Shown here: in pieces, positions 1 to 12,756 of the stretch
Position numbering within the stretch: the stretch's first letter is position 1
Layout: each line of letters begins with the position of its first letter
Assembly: GCA_947572385.1 (NCBI GenBank)
Contig: CANPBX010000019.1
Coordinates: forward strand, 1-38,817
DNA from: an uncultured Clostridia bacterium
GTDB taxonomy: Bacteria; Bacillota; Clostridia; Oscillospirales; Acutalibacteraceae
Direction of reading: 5' to 3'
Length of the DNA: 38,817 bases
The notes under the pieces: generated by a model
The model's database searches: none
Seen by the model: only the letters and a program-made list of their open reading frames with translations
What the model was told of the DNA's origin: nothing
Made by a program: the position numbers and the translations under genes

Positions 1-34
1 TGTCCCACAAGGATACTCAAATCCTATAAGGACA
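1..34. other. Nested inverted repeat next to the left att copy
   Basis: Two nested stems are visible. An outer TGTCC/GGACA stem (1-5 with 30-34) encloses an inner AGGAT/ATCCT stem (10-14 with 21-25), separated by matching 4-nt internal loops. It lies just beyond the 3' end of the truncated tRNA-Pro copy, so it is probably chromosomal sequence that originally followed the tRNA and could act as its terminator. A T-run, if any, would lie outside the window. Confidence 0.35.
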
Positions 35-41
35 CTCCGCA

Positions 42-111
42 TGGTCCGAGTGGCGAGACTTGAACTCACGGCCTCTTGACCCCCAGTCAAGCGCGCTACC
101 AACTGCGCCAC
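42..111 (-). repeat. Left 70-bp att repeat, a truncated tRNA-Pro copy
   Basis: These 70 bases are identical to 8947-9016 and correspond to the tRNA-Pro gene from U8/G9 region to the CCA end. The seven bases that should form the 5' side of the acceptor stem (112-118) do not pair with the 3' side: only about four of seven positions can pair, two of them as G-T wobbles. No promoter is visible upstream. This is therefore the duplicated att half of an integrated element and not a working tRNA. Confidence 0.9.
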
Positions 112-155
112 GACTAGGCAAAATCTGTTGAAATTACTGGGTTTTTGAAGACAGG

Positions 156-201
156 CCGCTTGATTCAGTCAAACATTTGGCGCTTGATTCTTCACTTGAT
201 T
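156..201 (+). promoter_or_regulatory. Candidate integrase arm-type sites, left end
   Basis: The motif CTTGATT occurs three times, at 159-165, 183-189 and 195-201, with start-to-start spacings of 24 and 12 bp. The two leftmost copies share the longer form (C/G)CGCTTGATT. The same motif occurs twice at the opposite end of the element, next to the integrase gene. Placement at both ends and helical-phase spacing suggest arm-type binding sites for the tyrosine integrase. The function is inferred. Confidence 0.45.
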
Positions 202-260
202 TACTATACCACCCAGCCGCGAAAAAGTCAACCCTATACATCAATTTTTGCAAGAGGTTA

Positions 261-941
261 TTATTTATTCGCTTTTAATTCAGCCTTATATCGGTAATAC
301 GTATTTCTCGCAAGCCCTGTCAGTTTCATTATCTCGATATCCGACAGGCTCCCGCCAAAGTCTTTGCAGTGCTGCAAAATGATGGGCTTCATTTCAAGGC
401 TTTTCTTAGTGGTCAGCCTAGCTCCTTCCCGCTGGCCTATCTGCTTCCCATTAAGGCGGGCCGTCTGTATGCCCTCCCTTGTGCGCTGGTGCAAGTCCTC
501 AACTTCTTTTTCGGCTTGGTCAAAAGCAAGCCTGATCTGTTCTTTTGCCAATGCCATCAGGTATTGATTCACGCCTCGCAGAATGCAGTCTACCGCTGTC
601 CCCGTCATAGGCACACTGCTTTCAAGCGCCTTACGGTAAGTGTCTGTATCGATATGGTGTTCCTTTAGAAACACAAGAGACACACCACGCTTAAAAAGTT
701 CCTCATAGACTGCAAAGCCCTCTTCAGCGTTACGGCTCATGCGGCTCACGCTGTCGAACACCAGAATATCACCCGCTTTGACTTTTGTAAAAAGTTTCTT
801 CCACTCTTTGCGATCAAATTTTATTCCTGTATAGGATTCTTGCACGATTATAGCACCGGGGTATTCTCGCTCAATATTCCTGATCTGCCGTTCAATACTC
901 TGCTTTGCCGTGCTGATTCTCGCATAACCGTAAATGCTCAT
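261..941 (-). CDS. Serine recombinase (resolvase/invertase family)
   Basis: This 226-residue protein begins MSIYGYARIST, the typical N-terminus of serine recombinases, in which the Ser of ARIST is the nucleophile. It continues with the conserved DILVFDSVSRMSRN segment, which carries the family's active-site Arg residues. The C-terminal third (about residues 175-226) contains a helix-turn-helix-like stretch, so it is a short resolvase/invertase-type enzyme and not a large serine integrase. The ATG at 941 is preferred over an upstream GTG at 956 because GGGAG lies about 8 nt before it. A consensus promoter and two 16-bp direct repeats lie upstream. It may resolve multimers of the excised element or invert a segment; no invertible segment is obvious. 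It coexists with a tyrosine integrase, which is the more likely integration enzyme. Confidence 0.9.
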   Translation of the reverse strand: MSIYGYARISTAKQSIERQIRNIEREYPGAIIVQESYTGIKFDRKEWKKLFTKVKAGDILVFDSVSRMSRNAEEGFAVYEELFKRGVSLVFLKEHHIDTDTYRKALESSVPMTGTAVDCILRGVNQYLMALAKEQIRLAFDQAEKEVEDLHQRTREGIQTARLNGKQIGQREGARLTTKKSLEMKPIILQHCKDFGGSLSDIEIMKLTGLARNTYYRYKAELKANK

Positions 942-978
942 TGCTGTATCTCCCACTAAAAGTATTTGATTTATCGTT

Positions 979-1067
979 CGTCAGATTTGATACTCGCATT
1001 ATACCCTAAACTGGTGCTAAAGTCAAGGGGTTTTAATACATTTCTTAAAAACGTCAGATTTGATACT
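979..1067. repeat. Two 16-bp direct repeats bracketing the recombinase promoter
   Basis: CGTCAGATTTGATACT occurs at 979-994 and again at 1052-1067, 73 bp apart, which is about seven helical turns. One copy lies just downstream of the -10 and the other just upstream of the -35 of the serine recombinase promoter. This arrangement fits autoregulatory operators or res subsites of the recombinase. TTTGAT also recurs at 965-970. Confidence 0.6.
998..1026 (-). promoter_or_regulatory. Promoter of the serine recombinase gene
   Basis: On the minus strand, TTGACT (1021-1026) is followed after 17 bp by a perfect TATAAT (998-1003). The predicted start of transcription is about 40-50 nt upstream of the ATG at 941. 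The promoter is bracketed by the 16-bp direct repeats. Confidence 0.75.
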
Positions 1068-1180
1068 TTGCAAACAAAGAAAAAGCGGGAGTAGTTTATT
1101 GCCTACCCGCCGCTTCCCTCTAAGTATATCTACCAGGGGGCTACTATACATTTGTAAGAGTATTACCATAAAGAAAAATA

Positions 1181-2491
1181 TCAGTAGTTGCTCTGCGTTC
1201 GCATCTGCGGCATGTCTTGAAAATCCTCGCCAGCATACCGCCCAAACTCCGCAAGGGGTTTTTGCAAAAGCGCCAGCATAGGGTTATTCGGATCTTTAGC
1301 CGTACATGGTGTATTCTTGCGGTACTCTGTAACCTGTGTCCAGTGCGCCAAAAGATTGTTTTTAGCTTTTATGCCTTTCCCAGCATAGTACCCATATTCC
1401 TGGACTTTCGCCATGAACGCATTGAAACAATTCTTAAACGCTTCTGCTTCTAAAGGATTACTCAAATCGCTAAAAGAAAAGGATTTTTTATAACTCGTAC
1501 CATCAACACCGCATTCAACAAGCACCTTATCCCGCGCCCAATCGTGAATATTATACCAGTAGTACGGCGCTATAATTCCAGTACGCCGCGCACCAAGTGA
1601 AGTATTAAGGCCTCCAGACACAGCCGCCAGAAAATAAGCATACTCGTTGTGTGGGTTTTCTGATAAGTGATCCGCCTCAATTCCCGCCGCAGAAAACCTT
1701 TTGTGCATCTCAACTAGTGCAACTTCGATCTCAGATGTCACTTTACCAATCAAAGCGTCTGAAAGATAGCCCATATGATACCCGCAAATTATTTCAGCCG
1801 TAGAGATAGGCACTTTGTTTAGTTTTACTCTCAAGTGGCCTTTATCTGTAAGCTCCCATGATGATATTGTGTTGAAGATGTAACATAGCGTTTCGTTGTA
1901 TTCGGTGTTTAAAATCTTTCCCGATCTGTGGCACAACTGAATACAATTTCTTTTTGGGCTATCAACTACCCTAATCATTCCGCTACTGTCAGGGCTAGCA
2001 CTCAGTGTGTTATATAGGCTATCTCGGTTTACCTCATAAACTGTATGTGTTTTCAAATACTCCGCATACTCACCAGTGGTAGAAATATTAGCGGAGTACT
2101 TTCTTTTTAAGTCAACCTCTATCCCATTGATATTCTTAAAATCTGTTTCTTGGTATATGGCGTAAAGTACGTTACTTAGCTTGTAGATTGGATCTATTCG
2201 CGATGGTATTACAGAATTGCCTATCAATGAAAATTTTCCTACTTGTTCTATATGAGCTTTCAACAGTTCATAAACGTACACTTTGCCATCTGCTCCAGGC
2301 TCTAAGCCAGTATAAACACCTGCAAAGGCTTTCACATCCACCCTATACAAACCCTCAAATTCATAACCGATAACTTTCTCAGGTGATTTTGTTCTACCGA
2401 CTTCCAGAACCCAATCGCAGTCATCATCGAAAGAAAAAATTTTGTTGTAGTATACTTTCCTTCCGCTTTCTTTGAATAATAGTTCTTTCAT
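1181..2491 (-). CDS. Unknown 436-aa element protein, possible degenerate HNH/AP2-like
   Basis: I do not recognise this protein with confidence. The start is well supported: AAAGGAG lies 9 nt before the ATG. The middle reads like a diverged HNH homing-type core. A segment KGHLRVKLNK (about residue 230) precedes a segment around residues 272-300 with D-H-L, then N-E, then an N followed by GARR, spaced roughly as the His/Asn residues of HNH nucleases are. The stretch near residues 345-380, with an F-rich strand followed by EAEAFKNCFNAF and a YGYYAG end, recalls AP2-type DNA-binding modules that often follow HNH domains. These resemblances are by eye and weak. No signal peptide or membrane segment is visible. 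It sits between the serine recombinase and the helicase on the same strand and is AT-rich like the rest of the element. Alternative roles include a replication or regulatory protein. Confidence 0.55.
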   Translation of the reverse strand: MKELLFKESGRKVYYNKIFSFDDDCDWVLEVGRTKSPEKVIGYEFEGLYRVDVKAFAGVYTGLEPGADGKVYVYELLKAHIEQVGKFSLIGNSVIPSRIDPIYKLSNVLYAIYQETDFKNINGIEVDLKRKYSANISTTGEYAEYLKTHTVYEVNRDSLYNTLSASPDSSGMIRVVDSPKRNCIQLCHRSGKILNTEYNETLCYIFNTISSWELTDKGHLRVKLNKVPISTAEIICGYHMGYLSDALIGKVTSEIEVALVEMHKRFSAAGIEADHLSENPHNEYAYFLAAVSGGLNTSLGARRTGIIAPYYWYNIHDWARDKVLVECGVDGTSYKKSFSFSDLSNPLEAEAFKNCFNAFMAKVQEYGYYAGKGIKAKNNLLAHWTQVTEYRKNTPCTAKDPNNPMLALLQKPLAEFGRYAGEDFQDMPQMRTQSNY

Positions 2492-2586
2492 TTTACATCG
2501 CTCCTTTTTGCATTTCTACTGTAATCCTAGCCAAAAATACAGCGCTCCTTTACAGAGAAAAGTTCTAAAATTAAATCATGCTTTTG

Positions 2587-2786
2587 GGAAGCCGCATAAA
2601 ACCTAACAATTTTGAGTTCCGCACTAAAGGAAACCCTTAGAACACTCACTTACGTTTATACATTGTGAACATTCTGTTAACAAAATAGACTTACTGCCGT
2701 TTGGCCTCCTACCGCGCCTATGATCTCTGCTCTATACATTATTCTTTAAGGGAAAGCGATTTCTAAAGTCCCGGAAGCCGCATAAA
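2587..2786. repeat. 14-bp direct repeat GGAAGCCGCATAAA
   Basis: GGAAGCCGCATAAA is present at 2587-2600 and 2773-2786, 186 bp apart. A shortened version (GGAAGCCG followed by TAAA) occurs at 3226-3237. Repeats of this size in the largest non-coding gap of the element could be iteron-like binding sites. Confidence 0.45.
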
Positions 2787-3045
2787 TACTGGGTTTTTCG
2801 AGAGTCGGTTTTCAATTTTAGGAGTTTTATAGTAACAAATCAAGCGTAGAAACTGCAACTGCCCCATATAAAGAAAGAAATGAGTAACACATTTAAGCTT
2901 GGCTGTGGTACTGGCTAAACTCTACGTAGAAATTAGTTTGCAATTCCTACTCCCTACGACATCTAAAATCTTGTGCAAGACTGTAGTTGCATATCCCATA
3001 AGAAAAAAGAAAAGTATCCTCTCTGATCTATGCTGCCGTATCTGC

Positions 3046-3075
3046 GCCGGGTTCCGCTTAGGGGCTACACCCGGC
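3046..3075. other. GC-rich hairpin inside the non-coding region
   Basis: GCCGGGT (3046-3052) pairs perfectly with ACCCGGC (3069-3075) across a 16-nt loop. No T-run follows on either strand, so it is not an obvious terminator. It stands out against the AT-rich surroundings. A nick-site or origin hairpin is possible but unproven. Confidence 0.35.
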
Positions 3076-3349
3076 TTGACACTAACGTAATCTTAGATGT
3101 GGTACAGATTGATTCTGCGGAACAAATGTTACTGCGATACAATCAAAGGTTTTCGTGTATGGGCTTTATCAAAAGTAAGCGGCGGGGCAACTGCGCACAA
3201 CAAAGGCGCATGTTGACCCAGAGCGGGAAGCCGTAAACCCATTGGTAATATTGCATAAATATCAGGAAAATTCTACCTTAATTTCCGTTGCCACATGCAT
3301 TTTCAAGCACAAGGCTTTAATATAACCCTTGCGCCCAAAACTGCATATT

Positions 3350-4882
3350 TCATTCCTGATATATGACCACTTCCCATGCAGTATAAAATTTTTGCTTGTT
3401 GTTTTCCATACGACTTGTACGAAACTTTATTAATCTATAAGGCAGTCTGCTGCCTTTAAGCCACCCTTCTATACTCTCAAATGATCGAGACAATTTTCGG
3501 TTTTGCCGAATATCCATTCTTTGAATAAATGCGTCTTTCTCCTGCTTTGTCAGCAGTGGTCTATTCACTATAGAATCAAGATATCCTGCAAGGCTTTCCT
3601 TGTGCCGAACTTCTTCGACAACGCTATATTTATCGAGCTGTAATCGTTCAGCGATATAACCTCTGTAGCCATCTTCATGTGTCATAATCTCATCGTACAC
3701 AGCTATTGTTTGTTTTGCATAGCCAACCTTAGTAGGCGCAAGCTGTTTTTCAAAATAAGTCTTGCCATCGATTTCTATAGGAACATCTACCACAACACCC
3801 AAGCTGTCATTGCTCCTATCATGTGCGGCGTTATAATTCTCTGCTCCCTCATCGGTAAACTGGTCAGTTTTCTTTACTAGCTCTAATAGCTTGCGTTTAG
3901 CTCCCGCAATGCGATTGTTACCGTAGTTGCGCACGTAAACATTGACCGTATCGCTTATATCCAGCGGTCGCTTTCGTCCAATGCTTTGTATAACGGCATC
4001 GGGGTCTAGCATATCGATAACAATAATATTTAACTCTGAATCCTTGAAAGTTACGCCAACATCCAGTGCTGGTGTGGTGAATAATAGATTACAGCCAAAA
4101 TGTTCTGTTGCTATCATAGCCGCTATCGCGTCCTCGTCCATACACTTTGCATAAGTCGAATTACTTTTGCTGCAAAGGAATAAGCTGTTTTGCTGATATT
4201 TGCAATGTAATTCATAAGCTTTTTGTGCGCTCCATAGAAAAAAGATACCTTTCTTGTTATCCTTGATAATCTGATTTGCTAAAATCTCAAATTGTGATTC
4301 TTGCGAGAAGTAGTTTAAGCTGGTTATATTAGAGTTTGCTATAGGCACAAAATATTCTGTAAAGGGTATCTTGTTTGCTTCTAGGTGCGCTTCAATTCTA
4401 TCTGGGGTTGCTGTGAGAAAAATCTTAACCGCATTTTCCTGGCCTACAATCCAGTCAAAAGAAAGATCTGTTTGTTTGCTAAAGCTTGAATCACTGATGA
4501 AATAGTGGACTTCATCGCATATGATAATATCCCAATCTTTCGTTATAGGCTTACCAAATTTTATAGCGGCCTCAAGGCTCTGATAAGTTGCAAGGGCTAT
4601 TGTGTCGCTATCCCCAATTTCTTTTTGTAGCTGTTCCTTTAATAGCGCTCGTGGGACAAGGTATAGCACTTGCTTATGTTGTTCTCTGTAAAAGTCGAGC
4701 AAATTGTTCCGCACAAAATAACTTTTTCCTGTCCCGGTTCCGCTACAGATAATGGTATTACTGCCGGGTGTCCATGATTGAATGTCATTTTCATTCAGCC
4801 ATTCGCTAAGCTTTCCAGGGATATGGCTAAAATAGCGTTTATCCTCTTCGCCGTTAATGTATAGTGGTAGTCTAAATCGCAT
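3350..4882 (-). CDS. SF2 DEAD/DEAH-type helicase
   Basis: The 510-residue protein has the ordered motifs of superfamily 2 helicases: Walker A GTGTGKS (residues 48-54), a DEAH-like DEVH box (123-126), motif III TATP, and a motif VI of the form QSIGRKRP in the second RecA-like domain. The C-terminal roughly 170 residues match nothing I recognise. The start is well supported by AAAGGAG 8 nt upstream. It is probably a DNA or RNA unwinding enzyme used in replication or maintenance of the element, since no other replication gene is visible. A role in a defence function is an alternative. It lies downstream of the small gene at 5051-5386 and may be co-transcribed with it. Confidence 0.85.
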   Translation of the reverse strand: MRFRLPLYINGEEDKRYFSHIPGKLSEWLNENDIQSWTPGSNTIICSGTGTGKSYFVRNNLLDFYREQHKQVLYLVPRALLKEQLQKEIGDSDTIALATYQSLEAAIKFGKPITKDWDIIICDEVHYFISDSSFSKQTDLSFDWIVGQENAVKIFLTATPDRIEAHLEANKIPFTEYFVPIANSNITSLNYFSQESQFEILANQIIKDNKKGIFFLWSAQKAYELHCKYQQNSLFLCSKSNSTYAKCMDEDAIAAMIATEHFGCNLLFTTPALDVGVTFKDSELNIIVIDMLDPDAVIQSIGRKRPLDISDTVNVYVRNYGNNRIAGAKRKLLELVKKTDQFTDEGAENYNAAHDRSNDSLGVVVDVPIEIDGKTYFEKQLAPTKVGYAKQTIAVYDEIMTHEDGYRGYIAERLQLDKYSVVEEVRHKESLAGYLDSIVNRPLLTKQEKDAFIQRMDIRQNRKLSRSFESIEGWLKGSRLPYRLIKFRTSRMENNKQKFYTAWEVVIYQE

Positions 4883-5050
4883 ACGCTTGCACTCCTTTAA
4901 AATAAAAAATGCCGCAACAATGTTAGGCTAGTAATGGTAGCCTTTCCAATGCTCGACTTGTTTGCTGTAAGCGTCCCCTTTTCCGGAACGCATCTTATTC
5001 ACTTGTTCCATTATGATACTATCTTTACCGCCCTTTGTCAAGGGGGTAAT

Positions 5051-5386
5051 TCAATCTTTCCAAACCCTTTCAACTCCGAAAGCAAAGCGCACTTTCCCGC
5101 CGCTTGCGCTAATGCTCAAACGGTCTGCCATGCTAATAGCCCTTGCAAGCCTCCCAGCCGCTTCACCGTCCATCATGATTAAGTCGGGCATATCCAGCCA
5201 AAGTAAGGCGTTCTGTTCATGTGGGTTAGGCTCATAGCCGCCTACTGTGCATCCATCCAGCCGCTCTAACTCTGCCCTGATTTTGTAGTACAGGCGTACT
5301 TTCTCAAAGTCTGCTCGTTTACCTATAAAGTTCTCGTTGCGGTCGTGCATTTCTGCAATCTCCTCCGGAGTGTAATCCTTGCTCAT
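5051..5386 (-). CDS. Small element protein of unknown function (111 aa)
   Basis: The reading frame is preceded by GGAGG 9 nt before the ATG and is collinear with the helicase gene 168 bp downstream. The protein is soluble-looking, acidic at its N-terminus (a run of D and E in the first 15 residues), and has no membrane segment, signal peptide or Cys motif. I recognise no family. The central part is rich in charged helix-forming residues, and the C-terminal half has a Gly/Ala-rich stretch (GEAAGRLARA). It might be an accessory factor for the helicase, judged only from position. Confidence 0.6.
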   Translation of the reverse strand: MSKDYTPEEIAEMHDRNENFIGKRADFEKVRLYYKIRAELERLDGCTVGGYEPNPHEQNALLWLDMPDLIMMDGEAAGRLARAISMADRLSISASGGKVRFAFGVERVWKD

Positions 5387-5774
5387 TTATGAAAACCTCC
5401 ACTTCTATAAGTAGCCTTACGGCTCTGCTTATATTACAGAAAATCAAGGGGTTTTGCTAACTTTGAGAGAAAATTTTTTCTTTGTTTATGGGAAACGGCG
5501 GTAAGTACTTCAGATTACACTATACTTCTGTATTTTTTTGTATAGGTTATGATGATATCTCTAAAAGCAGTATATCGAACTCCAAAAGAAAATCGGCGGG
5601 AATGGGGTTAAAAACTCTCATAAAATAGTGGTTCGGTGGCAGTTCGCAAAACCTAAGTTAATCAACAGCATAACGCCTTTACTTTAGTGCGATAAAGTGT
5701 CTTTTATTCGGGTTCGGTGATTCTCTGTACAAAAGCCATGTGTGCAGCATATATACACCAGCATCACCAGAAAT
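5387..5774. other. 388-bp AT-rich gap with no recognised feature
   Basis: I see no supported gene, RNA or clear terminator here. The sequence between the small gene and the lipoprotein gene is AT-rich and probably carries the promoter for the small gene and helicase. Confidence 0.4.
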
Positions 5775-6380
5775 TCACGCCACCTCAATACTCATGCACA
5801 CGTTACCCGATAAAATGAAAAAGCTATAATTGAATTGGTTTAATCTCGTTTCGTAAGTACTTTTGAGGGCTTGATCATCAAAAAAATAATTCTGCATGAT
5901 ATCCATTCTGAAATCCACACTTTGATTTTCTGTCATGCTTTCGTCTATCCCATAAGCTACAACCGTCATTGCGTTCACTGTTTTGAAAAAATATGCAATG
6001 TCTTCCACTGCTGTATCTGGTTCAGCTGCAAAAAGCACGTTGTCTAAAGTCCCATCTTCGTTAAAACATATAGTTGCCTTTGTCCATGTTGTTGGCTGAA
6101 AAGAGTTATTGTCTTCCGATAACATCTCGATTTTGTCCGGAGTATCAGCTTCACCAATGTATTCATTATATCTCTGAACAAAATTGTTATAACCTTCTTG
6201 AACTAGGGGCGATGGCGTTGGTGTTGCTGATAATCTCGATTCTAGTGCATCAATCTGTTCTTGCAGCTCACTGTTTTGTTTATTCAGTGCATCAAGTTCT
6301 TCTTGTGAAACCGAGCTTCCACATCCCGTAAGCCAAAACGCAACCATAACTGTCAACATCAGTACAAGTACCCTTTTCAT
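5775..6380 (-). CDS. Putative lipoprotein (201 aa)
   Basis: The N-terminus is a classic lipoprotein signal: MKR, a hydrophobic segment, then the lipobox LTGC with the lipidated Cys at residue 20. After the Cys comes a short Ser linker and a heptad-like Glu/Gln/Leu-rich helix (about residues 25-50), probably a coiled coil, then a small TPTPSP linker and a C-terminal domain of about 145 residues. I recognise no family for the mature domain. It should be anchored on the outer face of the membrane. It is transcribed from a strong promoter (6444-6472) divergently from a ribbon-helix-helix regulator gene, which suggests regulation by that protein. As cargo of a small integrative element it might affect the cell surface, but nothing in the sequence settles this. 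Confidence 0.75.
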   Translation of the reverse strand: MKRVLVLMLTVMVAFWLTGCGSSVSQEELDALNKQNSELQEQIDALESRLSATPTPSPLVQEGYNNFVQRYNEYIGEADTPDKIEMLSEDNNSFQPTTWTKATICFNEDGTLDNVLFAAEPDTAVEDIAYFFKTVNAMTVVAYGIDESMTENQSVDFRMDIMQNYFFDDQALKSTYETRLNQFNYSFFILSGNVCMSIEVA

Positions 6381-6415
6381 CGTCCAATCCCTCCAAGCGA
6401 TTTCCGTATTCTAAT

Positions 6416-6465
6416 TTCGATATCGAATTTGGAATATAGAATCAGTATAACAGACAGGCTATACT
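6416..6465. promoter_or_regulatory. Operator-like dyads between lipoprotein and RHH genes
   Basis: There are two dyads. TTCGATATCGAA (6416-6427) is a perfect 12-bp palindrome in the early transcribed region of the lipoprotein gene. AGTATA (6444-6449) and TATACT (6460-6465) form an inverted repeat with a 10-bp spacer; the first arm is the lipoprotein -10 and the second is a possible -10 for the divergent regulator. Ribbon-helix-helix proteins typically bind such repeats. Confidence 0.5.
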
Positions 6466-6472
6466 ATGTCAA
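6444..6472 (-). promoter_or_regulatory. Promoter of the lipoprotein gene
   Basis: On the minus strand a perfect TTGACA (6467-6472) is followed after 17 bp by TATACT (6444-6449). It reads toward the lipoprotein gene starting at 6380. Confidence 0.75.
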
Positions 6473-6489
6473 GAGGGAGGGCGATACTT

Positions 6490-6666
6490 ATGCCAACTTT
6501 TATTCCCAGGCGTCTGGAAAAAGAAGTTATCAGTATGCGCATAGCTGTTGATCTGCTACAAGAAGTCGATTCCAAAGCCGCCGCTTTTGGCATAAGCCGA
6601 AACGAGCTTATCAATCAGATGATCCAGTTTGCATTAGATAATATGGCGGACACCCAAAACAAATAG
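6490..6666 (+). CDS. Ribbon-helix-helix (CopG/Arc-like) regulator
   Basis: The 58-residue protein starting MPTFIPRR fits the ribbon-helix-helix fold. A short basic strand region is followed by MRIAVDLLQEVDSKAAAFGI, then SRNELINQMIQFALDN, the typical second helix of CopG/Arc repressors. I chose the ATG at 6490 over 6466 because GGAGGG lies 8 nt before it and would be coding with the earlier start. It is the only clear plus-strand gene of the element and is divergent from the lipoprotein gene. The shared intergenic region carries dyads that could be its operators. Such proteins are usually autorepressors or antitoxin-type regulators; no partner toxin gene is visible downstream. Confidence 0.75.
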   Translation: MPTFIPRRLEKEVISMRIAVDLLQEVDSKAAAFGISRNELINQMIQFALDNMADTQNK

Positions 6667-6906
6667 CATTACAAGCCCTAAAAAGCTCTGTGTCGGCTTT
6701 TACAAGATTAAACGTGTCCCAATACCTTTAAGCCTGTATAATCGATTCTAGGGGCAAATACTTCAACATTTTATGTAAAATTTCAAGGCGTGAATACTGA
6801 CCTACTGAGGGCACATCCCGGTAAAAGGAAATCTTTGAAAATGTTTTGTACCCCCCTTGGCTTGTATAGGGCAACTACCGCCCGCCGCTTCTTGTGCTAA
6901 ATAAAA

Positions 6907-6931
6907 AAGCCCCAGCGCAATGCCAGGGCTT
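6907..6931 (-). terminator. Rho-independent terminator after the paralog pair
   Basis: On the minus strand a 10-bp stem (AAGCCCTGGC with GCTGGGGCTT, including G-T wobbles) with a 5-nt loop is followed by a run of T. It lies 25 bp after the stop at 6956 and ends the transcript of the two paralogous genes. Confidence 0.85.
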
Positions 6932-6955
6932 CCCTATATATAAACTAGCTTTCCA

Positions 6956-7375
6956 CTAGGGTTTGTTTACGGCCTCGCTGGTAGGCTCCGTTCTTGCGAT
7001 CTCGCGCAGTACTACCTTCCAGTCCGCATAGTGTGCCGCCCATGTCCCCTCCCAAAATGGGGCTAAACCAGTTTTCCCAAAGTTAGCCGTTCTGAAAAGC
7101 TGATCGAGAATTTCCCTAACTTCTCTCGGTTCTGCATCGACATTGGCAAATACCGGCTCATCGCCACGATCGGCTTTCAAGGAAATACGCACTTCAAACG
7201 GCCTTGCCATCAAAGATACTCGCGCAACGGAACATCCGTCAAACTGTTTTGGTAGCTTTCCAGTGTAAGGTAGCTCAACCTTATCTTCACGCAAGCTTGG
7301 CCCAGCAGCCTTGATTTTGCTTATATCAAGCACAAAGCCGCCGTATTCTTGTCCGTACTCGTTCACTAATACCAT
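6956..7375 (-). CDS. Unknown protein, paralog of the gene at 7389-7775
   Basis: The true start is at 7375 (MVLVNEYGQEYGG), because AAAGGAGGG lies 6 nt upstream; the longer open frame runs into the neighbour and is a shadow. The 139-residue product aligns by eye with the upstream gene's product over about 109 residues with about 57 identities. Shared elements include PSLR, YTG-LP-QF, ARVSL, DAEP and a C-terminal FW-G-W-AH--DWK block. No signal peptide, membrane segment or catalytic motif is apparent, and I recognise no family. The C-terminal tail beyond DWK is longer than in the paralog. The gene follows its paralog by 13 bp and shares its terminator, so the two are probably expressed together and may form a heteromer. 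Confidence 0.7.
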   Translation of the reverse strand: MVLVNEYGQEYGGFVLDISKIKAAGPSLREDKVELPYTGKLPKQFDGCSVARVSLMARPFEVRISLKADRGDEPVFANVDAEPREVREILDQLFRTANFGKTGLAPFWEGTWAAHYADWKVVLREIARTEPTSEAVNKP

Positions 7376-7388
7376 AGCTAACCCTCCT

Positions 7389-7775
7389 TTATGCGCTCTT
7401 CTGCGCTGCTTTCCAGTCCACAAAATGTGCAAACCAAACTCCCGACCAAAAACTTTCAAGGCCAGTGCTGCCGCTGTTTGGAGTTTCAAAAAAGCGGTCA
7501 AGTAGATTCTCAATCTCAGGCGGCTCCGCATCGATAACGGCAAGCAAATTCTTTTTGTCTCTGTAAGCTCTAAGGCAAACCCTGACATCACGGGGTTTAA
7601 CGATCAAAGAAACTCTTGCGTTCTCGCAGTCCCTAAACTGTGCTGGCAGTCTGCCAGTATAGGTAAGCTCAATTCGATCCCCGCGCAAGCTGGGGTTTTC
7701 TGCTTGAATGTTGTCCATGTCCAGGGCAAAACCGTTGTACTGCTCAGTGCTAAAAATACCGTTTCTTAATTTCAT
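7389..7775 (-). CDS. Unknown protein, first of a tandem paralog pair
   Basis: The 128-residue product has a well-placed AAGGAGAG 8 nt before its ATG. It shares roughly half of its residues with the following gene's product, including PSLR, YTGRLP, ARVSL, DAEPPE and the C-terminal FW-G-W-AH--DWK block. Both look like small soluble alpha/beta proteins with conserved aromatic C-termini. I recognise no family. The pair lies between the integrase and the lipoprotein/regulator genes, in what is often the cargo zone of small islands. Tandem duplication followed by divergence is the simplest history. Confidence 0.7.
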   Translation of the reverse strand: MKLRNGIFSTEQYNGFALDMDNIQAENPSLRGDRIELTYTGRLPAQFRDCENARVSLIVKPRDVRVCLRAYRDKKNLLAVIDAEPPEIENLLDRFFETPNSGSTGLESFWSGVWFAHFVDWKAAQKSA

Positions 7776-7887
7776 AATGAAAACTCTCCTTATCTACTCT
7801 TCTATATTTACAGGCCTACATAAATCTTTGCTAACTTGTCACCGCTTTTTCTATGTGCTGCACAATTTTCTGCCGTGTTACAGTGTG

Positions 7888-8823
7888 TTATTTGTGCATT
7901 TTAATCTTGTGCTTTTGTTTGCCCTGTAGCTGGGCTAAAGGTGAAACGCTGTCGTACTCTCTTGATATATCCGCATCGAATATAGCGCAGTAGTGTTTTG
8001 TCATCTCCAAAGTTGAATGTCCCAACAAGTGTTGTAATGTAAAGGCGTTTCCTTGACAATCAACTAAATACTTTCGGGCAAAAGTGTGTCTGAAAGCGTG
8101 AATGCTTGTCTTTAGTACACCCCGCCGCTTGTTATATGCTGCAATACTATTGTACATGGCATACTCGCTCAAAGGCTCTCCAACGTCATTACAAAACAAG
8201 TAATCTTCTTCCGCACCACCACGCACCCGCATATACTCTTTAAGCACCTTTACCATTTCTGCGCAAAGGGGCGTTGTCTGTGCATGTCCGTTCTTTGTGT
8301 GCCGTAGGTATATTATCTTTGAGGGTAGATCAACGTCTTTAATCTTGATATTACGTACCGTTGCCGCTCTGCATCCGCTGTTTATTAGCAAGTTGACGAT
8401 AACCCAGCTTCGGTATTCTGTAAATCCGCAACGCTTCATGTCGGGCTTTTTTAACAGCCGTAGCAGTTCCTCATCCGTATATAGCTCCTTGATTGGCTCA
8501 GAGGCCTTGTAAGGCCGCATAGTAAGCCGTGTAATACCCTCCTCATTGCACCACGATAGAAAAGCCTTGAATGAACGCACGTAACTTTTGATTGATGTTG
8601 GAGCTAAACTTGCGTTTCTCATACTGACTATCATGGTATCAAGTTTTTCCCTCGTCACTTCTCCTATAGGCGTTGCCATGTCCAGGTGCTTTCCTATAGC
8701 TGAAAAATGCTGTTGATAGGTTTTCAAAGTCTTGTCCGCAAGCCCCGCCGCTTTCTTGGCAAGCAGAAAATCTTGAAGGACTTCCTCTAAGGGTATGGTG
8801 TTTTGCACTGCGATTTTGACCAT
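7888..8823 (-). CDS. Tyrosine-family site-specific integrase
   Basis: The 311-residue protein has an N-terminal SAM-like core-binding domain (about residues 10-95) and a C-terminal catalytic domain with all the expected residues: R152 (SGCRAATV), K177 (HTKNG), H242-x-x-R245 (HAFRHTFA), H269 (LLGHST) and the nucleophile Y278 (MTKHY). Its length is typical of XerC/D-like island integrases. AAGGAG precedes the ATG by 8 nt. The gene lies 123 bp from the intact tRNA-Pro, reading away from it, and the intervening DNA holds candidate arm sites and a perfect dyad. It is expected to catalyse integration and excision at the 70-bp tRNA repeats. No separate excisionase gene is clear; the ribbon-helix-helix protein or another small protein might serve. 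Confidence 0.95.
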   Translation of the reverse strand: MVKIAVQNTIPLEEVLQDFLLAKKAAGLADKTLKTYQQHFSAIGKHLDMATPIGEVTREKLDTMIVSMRNASLAPTSIKSYVRSFKAFLSWCNEEGITRLTMRPYKASEPIKELYTDEELLRLLKKPDMKRCGFTEYRSWVIVNLLINSGCRAATVRNIKIKDVDLPSKIIYLRHTKNGHAQTTPLCAEMVKVLKEYMRVRGGAEEDYLFCNDVGEPLSEYAMYNSIAAYNKRRGVLKTSIHAFRHTFARKYLVDCQGNAFTLQHLLGHSTLEMTKHYCAIFDADISREYDSVSPLAQLQGKQKHKIKMHK

Positions 8824-8832
8824 CTCTCACAC

Positions 8833-8868
8833 TCCTTGATTCTTCGAATTTTGCAAAAAATCAAGCGC
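8833..8868. promoter_or_regulatory. Candidate integrase arm-type sites, right end
   Basis: CTTGATT occurs on the plus strand at 8835-8841, and its reverse complement occurs at 8859-8865 within AATCAAGCGC, the complement of the left-end motif GCGCTTGATT. The spacing is 24 bp, as in the left arm. They overlap the integrase 5' leader, so integrase binding could also repress its own expression. Confidence 0.45.
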
Positions 8869-8871
8869 TTC

Positions 8872-8890
8872 GGTTATAAGAAATATAACC
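8872..8890. promoter_or_regulatory. Perfect dyad GGTTATA-N5-TATAACC upstream of the integrase
   Basis: GGTTATA (8872-8878) and TATAACC (8884-8890) form a perfect inverted repeat with a 5-bp spacer, 50 bp upstream of the integrase start. It overlaps the only plausible -10 (minus-strand TATATT) for the integrase, so it is a good candidate operator. Confidence 0.45.
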
Positions 8891-8904
8891 CTTGACAAAA
8901 CAAA

Positions 8905-8939
8905 AAAACCGCTGAAACCCTAGAGATTTCAACGGTTTT
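8905..8939 (-). terminator. Terminator downstream of tRNA-Pro
   Basis: Seen on the minus strand, AAAACCG and TTGAAA pair with TTTCAG and CGGTTTT with one mismatch, and the hairpin runs into a long T tract. It follows the tRNA 3' end by 7 nt. Because it lies inside the element, the element seems to bring its own terminator for the tRNA and so shields its integrase from tRNA transcription. Confidence 0.75.
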
Positions 8940-8946
8940 ATGGTGG

Positions 8947-9016
8947 TGGTCCGAGTGGCGAGACTTGAACTCACGGCCTCTTGACCCCCAGTCAAGCGCG
9001 CTACCAACTGCGCCAC
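8947..9016 (-). repeat. Right 70-bp att repeat
   Basis: These bases are identical to 42-111. Identity stops where the 5' acceptor strand of the tRNA begins (9017) and just after the CCA end (8946 differs from 41). The crossover must lie within these 70 bp, probably in the anticodon or T-arm portion, as is usual for tyrosine integrases. Confidence 0.9.
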
Positions 9017-9022
9017 ACCCGG
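8947..9022 (-). tRNA. tRNA-Pro(GGG)
   Basis: The minus-strand sequence folds into a full cloverleaf. The acceptor stem CCGGGTG/CACTCGG has one G-T pair, the D-arm starts GCGC, the anticodon stem CTTGA/TCAAG has loop CTGGGGG (anticodon GGG), and the T-arm contains GTTCAAGTC. CCA is encoded (8947-8949). A consensus promoter lies just upstream. It is the attachment site of the adjacent element and remains intact after integration. Confidence 0.95.
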
Positions 9023-9033
9023 ACGACTCTTGT

Positions 9034-9062
9034 ATTATACCTCATTCCGCGGCAAAATGCAA
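9034..9062 (-). promoter_or_regulatory. Promoter of tRNA-Pro
   Basis: On the minus strand TTGCAT (9057-9062) is followed after 17 bp by TATAAT (9034-9039), which ends 11 bp before the tRNA 5' end. The left tRNA fragment at 42-111 has no such promoter. Confidence 0.85.
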
Positions 9063-9092
9063 GAGTTTTTTTGTGTTTTTTCAAAGTTTTTT

Positions 9093-10118
9093 TCAGGACT
9101 TATCCTTGCGTTGGAGGAGTACCGCGCCGATGATGATGGCTCCCTTAAAGGCCGCGCTGAGATATGGGTCCACGCCAATAAGGTTTAGGAGGTTGTTCAT
9201 CACCGCCACTATCAGGGTGCCGAAGACGGTGCCCACAATGGAGCCCCTGCCGCCGGACATGCTTGTGCCACCCACTATTACTGAGGCAATAGCGTCCATC
9301 TCAAAGCCGTTGCCCGCGCTGGCGTAGTCCATTGAGCCAATGCGCGAGGTCTGGATTATGGCTGCTATGGCTACCAGGAAGCCTGTGAGGGCGTATACCC
9401 TGCGCTTTACGGCCCGGACATTTACCCCTGAGAGGCGGGTGGTGCGTTCATTGGAGCCGATGGCGAAGACATAGCGCCCGAAGGTGGTCTTCTTTGAGAT
9501 AACGTACATGGCTGCCGCCAGCAGCCCCCAGTAGAGGATGGGCATCAACTGCTGTCCCCCTATCTCCAGCCTTGCAATGCTCTTATATGCCTCGGGCAGC
9601 TCGGTGCGCTGGGCCTTCATGAAATACTGGGTCACGCTGCGGAGTATCTGCATGGAGCCAAGGGTGGCGATAAACGGCGGCATCCTGCCGTTTGAGATGA
9701 GCAGGCCGTTGCCCTCACCCAGCAGGCTGCCAAGGACTACCGCACCTATCAGTCCTATAAGTATCGCCGGTATACCGCCAAGCCCCGCCAGGGGCCCTCC
9801 AGTGTTCAGCACGACCATTATGAACGCGCCCACTGTCACATACACCGAGCCCACAGACAGGTCAATACCCCCGGAGATTATTACGAATGTCATGCCCAGG
9901 GCGATTATGCCTATGCCCGCGTTGCCTCTAAGCAGCGATACCCAGTTCTGCAGCCAGCTCTGGACCCACTCCCCAAAGGAGCTAAAGCTGGTGTTCATAG
10001 ACAGGGCTATGGTCTGCACTATCACCATTACCAAAAGGGCCATGCCGGTGCTGAAAAGCGGGTCATTGCGCCACTGATCCCGCAGCCTTATAAGAAGCTG
10101 TTTTCCTGTTTTTTCCAT
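9093..10118 (-). CDS. Sugar ABC transporter permease (RbsC-like)
   Basis: The 341-residue protein is strongly hydrophobic with about eight to ten membrane segments. It carries the conserved GGIDLSVGS motif (about residue 85) and, near the C-terminus, GGTSMSGGRGSIVGT, both typical of the ribose/galactose/autoinducer-2 permease family. It should form the membrane channel, as a dimer, for the ATPase encoded just upstream. AGGAGGG lies 9 nt before the ATG, and the gene starts 24 bp after the ATPase stop. The family transports pentoses, hexoses or related polyols; the substrate cannot be told from sequence. No clear terminator separates its end from the tRNA-Pro promoter. Confidence 0.92.
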   Translation of the reverse strand: MEKTGKQLLIRLRDQWRNDPLFSTGMALLVMVIVQTIALSMNTSFSSFGEWVQSWLQNWVSLLRGNAGIGIIALGMTFVIISGGIDLSVGSVYVTVGAFIMVVLNTGGPLAGLGGIPAILIGLIGAVVLGSLLGEGNGLLISNGRMPPFIATLGSMQILRSVTQYFMKAQRTELPEAYKSIARLEIGGQQLMPILYWGLLAAAMYVISKKTTFGRYVFAIGSNERTTRLSGVNVRAVKRRVYALTGFLVAIAAIIQTSRIGSMDYASAGNGFEMDAIASVIVGGTSMSGGRGSIVGTVFGTLIVAVMNNLLNLIGVDPYLSAAFKGAIIIGAVLLQRKDKS

Positions 10119-10142
10119 TTTCTACTGCCCTCCTCTTATTCC

Positions 10143-11621
10143 TCACGCGCCGGTTGCAAGGCGCATTATCTCCTGCTCAGCCATCTCCCCGGCGGGGAGC
10201 TCACCCTGGACCCTGCCATGGTACATCACTATAGCCCTGTCGCAAAGGCGTATTATCTCCTGGGCCTCGCTGGAGAGGACGATGACCGCGACCCCTCCGC
10301 CGGCCAGCTCCAGGATGGTGTCATATATGTCCTCCTTCGCACCCACGTCCACGCCCTGGGTCGGATTGTCAAATATGAGCACCTTCGGCCCGGCGTTCAG
10401 CCACTTTGCCAGCACCACCTTCTGCTGGTTGCCTCCGGAGAGGCTGCCTATCAGGTCCCCCTCTGCCCCCATCTTTATCCTAAGGGCCTCGGCCTGCCGC
10501 ATGAATGCCTCCTTTACCTGGCGCCAGCTTATCAAACCGTATTTCACGTGCCTGGGCCAGGTTACTATGGAACCGTTTTCCAGGATATCCATATCCTTTA
10601 TAATGCCGTTCTCCTTGCGGTCCCGGGGGACATACCCTATACCCAGCTCAACGGCCTGGCGGGTGTCCCGGACGGTGACAGGCTTCCCCTCAAGGTAGAG
10701 CTGCCCCTGGTATTTCCCGCCGCTGCCAAACACCGCCTGGAAGAGCTCACTGCGCCCGTCGCCCAGAAGCCCTGTAAAGCCAAGCACCTCCCCTGCCCTT
10801 ACAGAAAAGCTGACAGACTCAAAGTGCCGCTCCTGGGAGAGCCCATCGGCCCTCAGCACCTCATCTCCCAATTCACGCTCCCGGCGCAGGGACTGGGTGC
10901 GCACCTCGTGGCCCACCATATGCTTTGCCAGCTCATCCACATTGGTATCGGAGACGCTCCCCCGGGCCACCATGGAGCCGTCCCGCAGGACGGTGTACCT
11001 GTCGCATATGTCCATGACCTCCCGGAGCTTATGGGAGATGAACACCATCGCCACCCCCTGGCCCTTCAGGGTGCGCATCATGTCGAAGACCCTGTCTATC
11101 TCGGGGTCCGTCAGCGAAGTGGTAGGCTCGTCCATGATGATCACCGACGCCTCCATCAGAAGGGCCCGGGCTATCTCCACTATCTGCTTATACGAGGCGT
11201 CCAGGTCCCGGACCATTACCCTGGGGTCCAGGTCCACATCCATGCGCTCAAAGACCCCGGAACAACGGGCGCACATTGCCTTTGCGTCCAGAAGGCCCGC
11301 CTTGGTCTTCAGCTCCCGGCCTATGAACATGTTCTCATATATGCTCAGGTCGTTCACCAGGTTCAGCTCCTGGTGAATAAAGGCTATCCCGGCGGCAAGG
11401 GACTCCGCTGGGCTTTTAAAGACGGCCTCCCTGCCGTCCAGGAGCACCGTGCCCCGGTCGGCGGGGAGCACGCCCCCCAGTATGTTCATAAGTGTGGACT
11501 TGCCCGCACCGTTCTCTCCCAAGAGGGCGCATATCTCCCCCGAGGCCACAGAGAAGCTTATGTCCCGCAGCACGTCATTTGCGCCGAAGGATCTGTATAT
11601 GCCGCGCATTTCCAGGGTCAT
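10143..11621 (-). CDS. Sugar ABC transporter dual ATPase (RbsA/MglA-like)
   Basis: The 492-residue protein contains two fused ABC domains, as in RbsA, MglA and XylG. The first has Walker A GENGAGKST and Walker B/Glu MDEPTTSLTD. The second has a degenerate P-loop (GLLGDGRSEL, normal for the family), an intact signature LSGGNQQKV, and a Walker B of the form IFDNPTQGVDVGAK. In that motif the catalytic Glu is replaced by Asn, so only one of the two composite sites is likely to hydrolyse ATP efficiently. GAGGAGG lies 8 nt before the ATG. It is the middle gene of the operon binding protein-ATPase-permease and should sit on the cytoplasmic face of the permease dimer. Confidence 0.93.
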   Translation of the reverse strand: MTLEMRGIYRSFGANDVLRDISFSVASGEICALLGENGAGKSTLMNILGGVLPADRGTVLLDGREAVFKSPAESLAAGIAFIHQELNLVNDLSIYENMFIGRELKTKAGLLDAKAMCARCSGVFERMDVDLDPRVMVRDLDASYKQIVEIARALLMEASVIIMDEPTTSLTDPEIDRVFDMMRTLKGQGVAMVFISHKLREVMDICDRYTVLRDGSMVARGSVSDTNVDELAKHMVGHEVRTQSLRRERELGDEVLRADGLSQERHFESVSFSVRAGEVLGFTGLLGDGRSELFQAVFGSGGKYQGQLYLEGKPVTVRDTRQAVELGIGYVPRDRKENGIIKDMDILENGSIVTWPRHVKYGLISWRQVKEAFMRQAEALRIKMGAEGDLIGSLSGGNQQKVVLAKWLNAGPKVLIFDNPTQGVDVGAKEDIYDTILELAGGGVAVIVLSSEAQEIIRLCDRAIVMYHGRVQGELPAGEMAEQEIMRLATGA

Positions 11622-11649
11622 ACCCTAAACCTCCTCAATAATTTACAGA

Positions 11650-11677
11650 AAGGCTATGACGTGTGCGCCATAGCCTT
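11650..11677 (-). other. Intergenic hairpin between binding protein and ATPase genes
   Basis: AAGGCTATG (11650-11658) and CATAGCCTT (11669-11677) form a perfect 9-bp stem with a 10-nt loop in the 79-bp gap. No T-run follows on the minus strand. Such hairpins often protect the upstream message and give higher levels of the binding protein than of the membrane parts. Confidence 0.55.
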
Positions 11678-11700
11678 CTGCTCAGGTCAAATAGATATTA

Positions 11701-12756
11701 TTAGTAGGGGGACTTCTCGTCCAGGTAGTCCGCGCAGTTCTCCCGGTCCACGATGGTGGTGGGGATGATCTTCTCCACGTCGGGGCTCTCACCCTTCAGC
11801 AGGGCCACTGCCACGTCCACAGCGTCCTTGACCATGTCGGGGCTGTAGAGGGCGGACTGGATCCAAATCTCCTCGTTCTCGGGCATCATGTTGAAGTACT
11901 CCTGGCACCCGCCGCCGCCGGTGACAACCTTGATGTCGGTGCGCTTGGCCTCGCTGATGGCCTGGAGCACGCCGATGGAGGTCTCGTCGTCCATGGAGAA
12001 CACGGCGTCGATCTGGGGGTTGGCGCTGAGCACGTCGGTGAAGTCAGCCAGGCCGTCCTCACGGGTAAAGGCGGTCTCGTAGTACAGGAGCTCCATGTCG
12101 GGGGCAAGCTCCTTTATCTTCTCCTCAAAGCCCTTCTTGCGCAGCTCGGAGACGGAGCCGGAGGATGGGACCTCCAGCACTGCGACCTTGCCGGTGGTGC
12201 CGATCTTGTCAACGATGTACTGGGCGCTCTGGGTACCCATATCCACGTTGTCGCCGGCCACATGGTACACGCCCTCAACGTCGATAACGATGTCGAAGTT
12301 CACCACAGGAATACCTGCGTCGATGAGGCCCTTGATGGGGTCCTCCATGCCCTCCCACTGGGGGAAGGCCACGACAGCCTGGGCGCCCCAGGTCTTGAGC
12401 TCGTCGATCTGGTTTGTCATCTCCTCGGCGTTGCTGCTGGTGAGCAGACGGTACTCAACGGTGTCGCTCAGCTCCTCGCAGCGCTCCTGGGCGTAGTAGG
12501 CAACGCCCGCCACCCAGCCGTGGGTAACTGCCGGGGCCAGGATGCCCACCTTGAACTTCTCGCCGCCGCTGGTGTCAGTGGCGCTGGCCTCAGATGATGA
12601 GTCCTCGGAGCTCTCCTCAACAGTGGAGCTCTCCTCGGTGGACGACTCGCTGGAGCTGTTGCCGGCCTCGCTGGAGCTGCTGGAGTCATTGCCGCAGGCC
12701 GCGAAGCAGCCCACTACCAGCATAAGGACCAGCAGCATGGAAATTACTTTCTTCAT
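11701..12756 (-). CDS. Sugar-binding lipoprotein of an ABC importer (RbsB/type-1 PBP-like)
   Basis: The 351-residue protein has a lipoprotein signal peptide (MKKVISMLLV, then a hydrophobic stretch). The lipidated Cys is either C17 (VVGC) or C21 (FAAC); a Ser/Glu-rich linker of about 40 residues follows. The mature part begins KVGILAPAVTHGW and shows the periplasmic-binding-protein type 1 pattern: a hinge segment IDAGIPVVNFD, IDAVFSMDDET, and a near-C-terminal strand. It captures a sugar or sugar-like ligand outside the membrane. The start at 12756 is chosen because AAGGAGG lies 9 nt upstream. It is the first gene of the importer operon, with its own promoter (12829-12857) and an operator-like dyad in the leader. 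The acidic tracts in the linker probably span the cell wall. Confidence 0.92.
   Translation of the reverse strand: MKKVISMLLVLMLVVGCFAACGNDSSSSSEAGNSSSESSTEESSTVEESSEDSSSEASATDTSGGEKFKVGILAPAVTHGWVAGVAYYAQERCEELSDTVEYRLLTSSNAEEMTNQIDELKTWGAQAVVAFPQWEGMEDPIKGLIDAGIPVVNFDIVIDVEGVYHVAGDNVDMGTQSAQYIVDKIGTTGKVAVLEVPSSGSVSELRKKGFEEKIKELAPDMELLYYETAFTREDGLADFTDVLSANPQIDAVFSMDDETSIGVLQAISEAKRTDIKVVTGGGGCQEYFNMMPENEEIWIQSALYSPDMVKDAVDVAVALLKGESPDVEKIIPTTIVDRENCADYLDEKSPY

Follow-up and report, generated by a model that had tools for sequence, protein, structure and literature searches.

How an island without a recognised transfer gene reaches a new host is described as an open question for many genomic islands (PMC11389934), and the same question is raised by the tRNA-Pro island studied here. 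It occupies the left part of a 38,817-nt stretch of DNA (hereafter the window: contig C19, first base onward, of genome G000, 2.39 Mb in 84 contigs) from an uncultured Clostridia bacterium. We propose that it is a mobile, non-autonomous integrative island and, most likely though by no means certainly, a satellite of temperate Neglectibacter phages that are large and SPbeta-like. One such island would now have a specific, testable candidate helper, namely phages that carry a 34-bp promoter-like motif; the motif would account for the sensing of a phage by an island that has few regulators of its own, and with it gut metagenomes could be probed simply for phages of this kind and for other satellites. 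A literature search, outside which most subscription journals fall, returned no paper on satellites of SPbeta-like phages and none joining Neglectibacter and 'mobile element'.

The island is integrated in a tRNA-Pro gene and recently changed hosts

A preliminary description made from the letters alone had proposed a perfect 70-bp direct repeat at the island ends, with an intact tRNA acceptor stem at one copy and a broken stem at the other, and both points held. The two copies are 100% identical with a spacing of 8905, and the runner-up direct-repeat family in positions 1-12000 reaches only 37 nt at 73% identity. Each copy corresponds to the 3' 70 of the 76 nt of tRNA-Pro(GGG), starting at the encoded CCA and ending 6 nt before the tRNA 5' end; the left copy continues with CCTAGTC where the intact gene has CCGGGTG. 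ARAGORN called tRNA-Pro(ggg) at 8947-9022 and 42-118, and the Rfam tRNA model gave 63.6 bits for the right copy (model 1-71) and 44.2 bits for the left one (52-111, model 7-64). These were the two matches over threshold in the Rfam RNA scan, the sole sub-threshold match falling outside the island. The G+C content is 42% between the repeats versus 58% in the remaining window.

As the window begins at a contig end, the left flank is limited to 41 bp; 32 of these match DNA adjoining tRNA-Pro in genome G021 at 94% (0/2000 shuffles score as well), and the 41 bp fold as a hairpin (4/200 shuffles equally good). Since the terminator at the right end adjoins the tRNA (Table 1), and the left 41 bp fold as a hairpin and resemble tRNA-Pro-flanking DNA, the island seems to restore a terminator as well as the tRNA.

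A second copy of the island was found at the tRNA-Pro gene of G011, taken as Neglectibacter sp. X58 and as a member of the genus to which G000 also belongs, with 4 differences in 8981 bp (window 42-9022). Its flanks differ from those of the window on both sides, and the host DNA right of the tRNA matches contig C98 of G011 in two stretches, one of 2573 bp (75.1% identity) and one of 933 bp (81.0%). Because a near-identical island stands between other flanks in another species, while the shared host DNA is 75-81% identical, the comparison indicates that the island passed recently between two species; its mobility is near certain, and the recent integration deduced in the preliminary description, which had judged the element probably excisable, is supported. 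All 4 differences are intergenic (chance 0.0056 under even placement, the non-coding part being 27%), which fits selection on the genes, though four is few. When 84,980 species genomes were scanned with a peptide pattern for the island protein P436, a search able to find close relatives only, the single return was Neglectibacter sp. X58 (contig NZ_QWEO01000008.1). The same data bear on the idea of a decayed island or integrated plasmid remnant that no longer moves. The small number of genes, the orphan protein P436, the plasmid-like resolvase and helicase and the lack of a known transfer gene would suit such a remnant; nevertheless its genes are open, its attachment (att) copies identical and its few differences all intergenic between species so diverged, and we regard decay as very improbable.

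A relative carrying the tRNA-Pro locus without the island, which the preliminary description had proposed to look for, does exist: the homologous empty site of G018 has a right flank of 87% identity, a lone tRNA, then a hairpin and a gene read by eye as aldolase. The tRNA query matched in 28 of 29 genus genomes, and a second copy cut at 70 nt occurred only in G000 and G011, G023 having two full-length copies on different contigs. A survey of ±1.5 kb around 31 loci (75-76 of 76 bases in 26 of them) gave no second tRNA copy, a weak test, since in G000 and G011 it misses the copy that lies 8.9 kb off; no tandem tRNA array, one of the findings named beforehand as speaking against the island, was seen. 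The tRNA-Pro(GGG) gene is also a hotspot, with nearly identical other DNA 3' of the tRNA in G010 and G001 (L025, L097). In G010, whose right flank is 95% identical, this DNA includes a different tyrosine-integrase gene, read by eye.

Shared genes and a 95-bp block link the island to two large prophages

Three kinds of sequence link (shared genes, a 95-bp block and the motif) lead from the island to candidate helpers, two related prophages of about 125-130 kb in two further species, G001 and G018. The first is a low-G+C segment at about 17.5-147 kb of G001:C72 and the second its relative at about 38-163 kb of G018:C16, their bounds being drawn from G+C and shared open reading frames (ORFs); 119 ORFs of G001:C72 match G018:C16 at 1e-10. 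PHROGs recognised large terminase, portal, tail protein and integrases in the G001 prophage, and inspection by eye added polymerase, reductase and tape-measure genes. Among the best 10 of 104 records, its terminase is 44.8% identical to that of a 176-kb fecal phage, 41% to that of Lysinibacillus phage LC76P1 and 38% to those of SPbeta-type phages of 124-132 kb; 'SPbeta-like' is our working label, drawn from terminase and size.

Homologues of 3 of the 9 island genes, P111, P128 and P141, are present in both prophages, each of which has one gene related to P111 and one related to both P128 and P141 (identities in Table 1). Relatives of P128 occur in 4 of the 29 genus genomes, in the island in G000 and G011 and in the prophages in G001 and G018, and neither P128 nor P111 had a match in the phage collection. 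Next to the prophage P128 homologue stand genes for an M78 peptidase and a helix-turn-helix regulator, which together resemble a lysogeny module. The gene behind the homologue was considered as a relative of MrpR, gave no PDB match at E 1, and is not claimed as such.

The 95-bp non-coding block was found when island intergenic DNA was compared with mobile contigs, and is 94.7% identical (90/95) to G001:C72. Since the two prophages agree with each other at 72/95 columns, this suggests that the island had contact with a G001-like phage. In the prophages the block is flanked by a Phage_integrase gene on one side and on the other by a gene for a P-loop protein of PHROG 2467, and it is not unusually stable as an RNA fold (z -0.79). 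We gave it no name because even for SPbeta the sites where packaging and replication start are described as unsettled (PMC8270828). A 131-base query matched 26 of 29 genomes at E up to 1, mostly only over a hairpin core; as this core recurs genus-wide, only the full 95-bp match is evidence. The hairpin itself (24 nt, window 2775-2798; L135-L154) reads about AAGCCGCATAAATACTGGGTTTTT, with a stem that varies in matching ways, a constant loop GCATAAATACT and T-runs after it, and is perhaps a terminator or a fixed-loop protein site.

A promoter-like motif is common to the island and the prophages

Weak short matches to prophage intergenic DNA turned out, once inspected, to be a bipartite motif of about GGTTAGCAA-N14-CTGTAAATATA; the discovery search had given 28 forward versus 22 reversed-control matches at E 1. 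We scanned for AGTTAGCAAA plus CTGTAAATATA with spacers of 12-20 and 4 mismatches allowed, and obtained 23 sites in the G001 prophage (20 with spacer 13) and 18 in the G018 prophage (all with spacer 13), compared with 1 in the host parts of the prophage contigs and 0 in the window host DNA. The island has 2 sites, both with spacer 13 (20 simulations: mean 0.15, maximum 1), and 5 hits at 5 mismatches (simulated mean 0.55), partly the same sites at other spacers. The 38 spacer-13 prophage sites form one block per prophage (78.5-97.4 kb in G001, 82.9-100.2 kb in G018) on one strand. An ORF starts 0-145 nt downstream of 37 of them, a distance taken without a control, and the last lies at the stretch edge.

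A scoring matrix built from these 38 sites found no site above 10 in window host DNA. The two island sites lie upstream of P128 and P111, both of which have prophage homologues, and the prophage P111 homologue sits within the motif block. The P128 site keeps all 21 core positions, even though P128 itself has only 45-51% identity to its prophage relatives and the spacer differs, a pattern suggesting that selection has preserved recognition of the site by a phage-linked factor.

We then applied the matrix to other loci (930,448 bases, partly overlapping; 26 prophage-contig and 19 island loci excluded beforehand). All 34 hits at or above the training minimum fell in L173-L181, viral contigs that make up 71,326 bases, and none in the remaining about 859,000 bases. 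Nine of the 34 are exact matches used to fetch L174-L181; the other 25 are not. These loci are stretches of 6 contigs of 62-135 kb, and at 4 mismatches 7 of the 8 hold 4 to 9 sites, the shortest holding one. One 87-kb IMG/VR contig was reached by both P128 and the motif. The large Neglectibacter prophages (L155-L172) and the six IMG/VR contigs (L174-L181) share the 34-bp motif clustered in one gene block. An identity of the motif with SPBRE, described as a 15-bp repressor site (PMC10516654), was considered and is not claimed.

Phage-type promoter sites before phage-like genes are also what a phage-sensing defence or decoy island might carry, P111 and P128-P141 being made when phage promoters fire so as to hinder the phage, and the island moving by other means; the lysogeny-like neighbours of the prophage P128 homologue point the same way. 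PADLOC, however, recognised no defence model beyond weak helicase matches, and for such an island the 95-bp non-coding block would be superfluous. We hold this explanation to be improbable, and it could be true alongside the satellite reading.

The island as a candidate phage satellite

The preliminary description had named no element class, and the phage link found since points to a satellite. According to this reading, the integrase would cut the island out in circular form, replication would fall to the helicase, perhaps together with P436, and the serine recombinase would resolve multimers. An active phage would switch on P128-P141 and P111 through the helper-type promoters, and the 95-bp block would act in cis as an origin, packaging start or recombination site. 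The island DNA would exit in helper particles and re-integrate at the tRNA-Pro of the next host.

Several observations weigh against a satellite. The best discovery match (the 95-bp block aside) had E 0.003 forward versus 0.006 reversed, the motif itself was first seen via weak island matches (E 0.003-0.1), so that the island sites are not wholly independent of its discovery, and at 6 mismatches the island gives 12 hits, near chance (mean 5.65, maximum 13). The P111 site, at 18.7 bits, is under the training minimum of 24.1. The prophage P128 homologue itself has no motif site just upstream, so the pairing of site and gene in the island is no simple copy of the phage arrangement. Judged by the P128 marker, neither island host carries such a prophage; hitchers are described as commonly present in genomes without a possible helper (PMC11389934). 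No AlpA, terminase, capsid or capsid-size gene was recognised in the nine proteins by Pfam, NCBIfam or PHROGs, and satellites without any known packaging gene are on record (PMC10803314). Finally, the reading is drawn from sequence, excision, induction and packaging being deduced from it, and P436, P111, P128 and P141 have no assigned function.

The main competing explanation of mobility is a relaxase-less integrative mobilizable element (IME), of the mobilizable genomic island (MGI) or iOriT type, for which a conjugative element would provide transfer in trans, the phage genes being acquired cargo. Such elements are a known kind (PMC5704250), and like them the island has an integrase, a tRNA site and no transfer gene; as a difference, no conjugation-related gene was recognised in it, nor an oriT in a comparison with relaxase contigs of G011. 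The second host, G011, has 8 PF03432 relaxase matches, compared with 0 in G000 (only PF03432 searched among relaxase families). It also holds an element (L088, on G011:C97, adjoining tRNA-Met) in which an integrase, a helicase (28%) and a serine recombinase (26%) are joined by a short gene with a PF03432 relaxase domain. An oriT-like match was sought against seven relaxase contigs of G011, but the best (E 0.033; reversed controls 0.10) was the genus-wide hairpin, and phage-type sites upstream of phage-like genes are left unexplained by mobilization. We consider this explanation rather unlikely, though less so than defence, and retain the satellite as the preferred one.

Relation to known elements

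In P4-like satellites, genes are read from promoters served by the helper's factors, and the putative helper-factor promoters of the island recall this arrangement; but no P4 gene was recognised in the island, the candidate helper is of another type, and the motif lies in a block of replication-side, not structural, genes. The island has the att repeats, integrase and empty site of a site-specific integrative element. Pfam, NCBIfam and PHROG searches gave no match to the AlpA-type regulator or terminase small subunit of phage-inducible chromosomal islands (PICIs), to capsid genes of its own as in capsid-forming PICIs (cfPICIs), or to a relaxase of its own as in canonical IMEs (P436 being too divergent for firm exclusion of a new kind), nor any confident match to the conjugation or virion genes of integrative and conjugative elements (ICEs) or prophages. 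Small site-specific islands with their own integrase and replication gene are reported among phage-inducible chromosomal minimalist islands (PICMIs) and other PICI-type satellites (PMC10803314), and PICMIs too are described as lacking a terS, sid or ppi homologue (PMC10803314). In contrast to PICMIs, the island has no AlpA or DUF3987/DUF5906 primase match, lies at tRNA-Pro and not at fis, and has phage-type promoter sites.

Jumbo phages have been reported to carry islands such as I55, which has, like ours, a tyrosine integrase, direct repeats at an RNA gene and no transfer gene, and for which movement by a large phage was shown (PMC12595487). I55 differs as described there in its tmRNA site, 14-bp repeat, AlpA, larger size and unrelated phage (PMC12595487). 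A similar gene set is found in L076 (MT836340), an unannotated fecal 'phage' record, with integrase (34%), helicase (26%) and serine recombinase (25%) on one 11-kb contig; its cargo is a pair of AAA ATPase and DUF4276 genes, unlike that of the island, and it has no motif site at or above the training minimum. As the defining genes of the named families were not found in the tests made, we keep the island outside them, and it is likely a new variant of phage satellite. We rate as evenly balanced the further possibility that the island is the first known representative of a family of satellites that exploit large SPbeta-like phages in gut Oscillospiraceae; such an island, 9 kb long and with integrase, helicase and resolvase of its own, would sense the state of the helper through copies of that phage's dedicated promoters and would bear a helper cis site.

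Genes of the island

Table 1. Coordinates of the island, its genes and its sites in the window
Feature	Positions	Strand	Basis
Left host DNA at contig end, probably in part the displaced tRNA terminator	1..41	.	G021 match, hairpin fold
Left att copy, 3' 70 nt of tRNA-Pro(GGG), wrong 5' end	42..111	-	Repeat search, Rfam, sequence comparison
Serine recombinase (resolvase/invertase type), 226 aa from ATG at 941	261..941	-	PF00239 76.7 bits (ORF listed 261-944)
P436, orphan protein	1181..2491	-	No family match; only G000 and G011/X58 copies found
95-bp non-coding block common to prophages	2739..2833	.	E 3.5e-37 to G001:C72; 86% over 65 bp to G018:C16
Superfamily 2 (SF2) helicase, 510 aa, likely replication	3350..4882	-	PF04851 45.6 bits, PF00270 38.4 bits
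P111, homologue of prophage gene	5051..5386	-	43% and 47% to genes of the two prophages
Putative helper-type promoter-like site upstream of P111, weaker form	5429..5462	-	4 mismatches, spacer 13; 18.7 bits
Predicted lipoprotein, 201 aa	5775..6380	-	SA0632_fam_LP 27 bits, under cut-off 70; lipobox by eye
Palindrome between lipoprotein and ribbon-helix-helix (RHH) genes, candidate operator	6402..6441	.	Overlapping arms, 83% complementary
RHH regulator, 66 aa, sole + strand gene	6466..6666	+	phrog_18157 repressor E 3.9e-7
P141, paralogue of P128, ATG at 7375	6956..7375	-	45% to P128; 43% to both prophage genes
P128, homologue of prophage gene	7389..7775	-	51% and 45% to genes of the two prophages
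Putative helper-type promoter-like site upstream of P128	7803..7836	-	0 mismatches, spacer 13; 30.0 bits (training range 24.1-43.0)
Tyrosine integrase, 311 aa	7888..8823	-	PF00589 96.6 bits; catalytic residues kept
Island-borne terminator directly behind tRNA	8905..8939	-	16 pairs then T-run; z -4.82; 0/200 shuffles as stable
Right att copy, within intact tRNA-Pro(GGG) gene 8947-9022	8947..9016	-	ARAGORN, repeat search, Rfam

The island encodes nine proteins, in order the serine recombinase, P436, the helicase, P111, the lipoprotein, the divergent RHH regulator, P141, P128 and the integrase. The two recombinases of different families and the helicase seen in the letters were recovered by profile search, and the reported lack of relaxase, secretion and phage structural genes agrees with the absence of Pfam or NCBIfam matches to such models in the nine proteins. 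In PHROGs the only lines of structural type are weak: the helicase matches a terminase model at E 0.066, and the lipoprotein matches spanin models at E 0.003-0.13. The integrase was likewise rightly called complete, since R152, K177, H242, R245, H269 and Y278, which we take to be the catalytic set, are all kept in a 34% relative. R9, S11, R68 and R71 of the serine recombinase are kept in two relatives, and the RHH regulator scored 19.7 bits with RHH_1, slightly under the cut-off of 20.5. Sigma-70-like candidates precede other island genes; a scan by consensus only gave 25 versus 16.7 expected.

Searches for P436 yielded 2 of 198 related genomes (G000 and G011) and 1 of 391 class genomes (G000), and no relative in plasmids, phages or IMG/VR. 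As a relaxase, polymerase or replication protein it had no profile match and no PDB match at E 10, and its single-sequence fold (pLDDT 35.9) was too poor to use. Only weak pairs were seen when iterons were sought at 2480-3360. IMG/VR gave no matches when scanned with P436, helicase, integrase and P128 one protein at a time; an alignment search with the integrase gave one relative at 23%.

The helicase has full-length phage relatives at 31-34% identity, and its best relatives, among the matches listed, are phage or prophage genes. It was considered as a family mark and set aside, and of the nine island proteins only the helicase and integrase matched ORFs of L098-L113, L116 and L117 (BLASTP). 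In four phage loci (L098, L109, L116, L117) a related helicase lies near a 950-1167-aa protein without a confident Pfam match and with an invariant D-x-D-x-D, presumably resembling RNA polymerase-like barrels; hhalign gave a probability of 0.3% for P436 against these four proteins. A helicase relative is also encoded by Sarcina sp. JB2 plasmid p4 (L077), a 13.7-kb circular molecule with annotated capsid, portal, terminase and protease, which is perhaps a capsid-coding satellite or a phage-plasmid.

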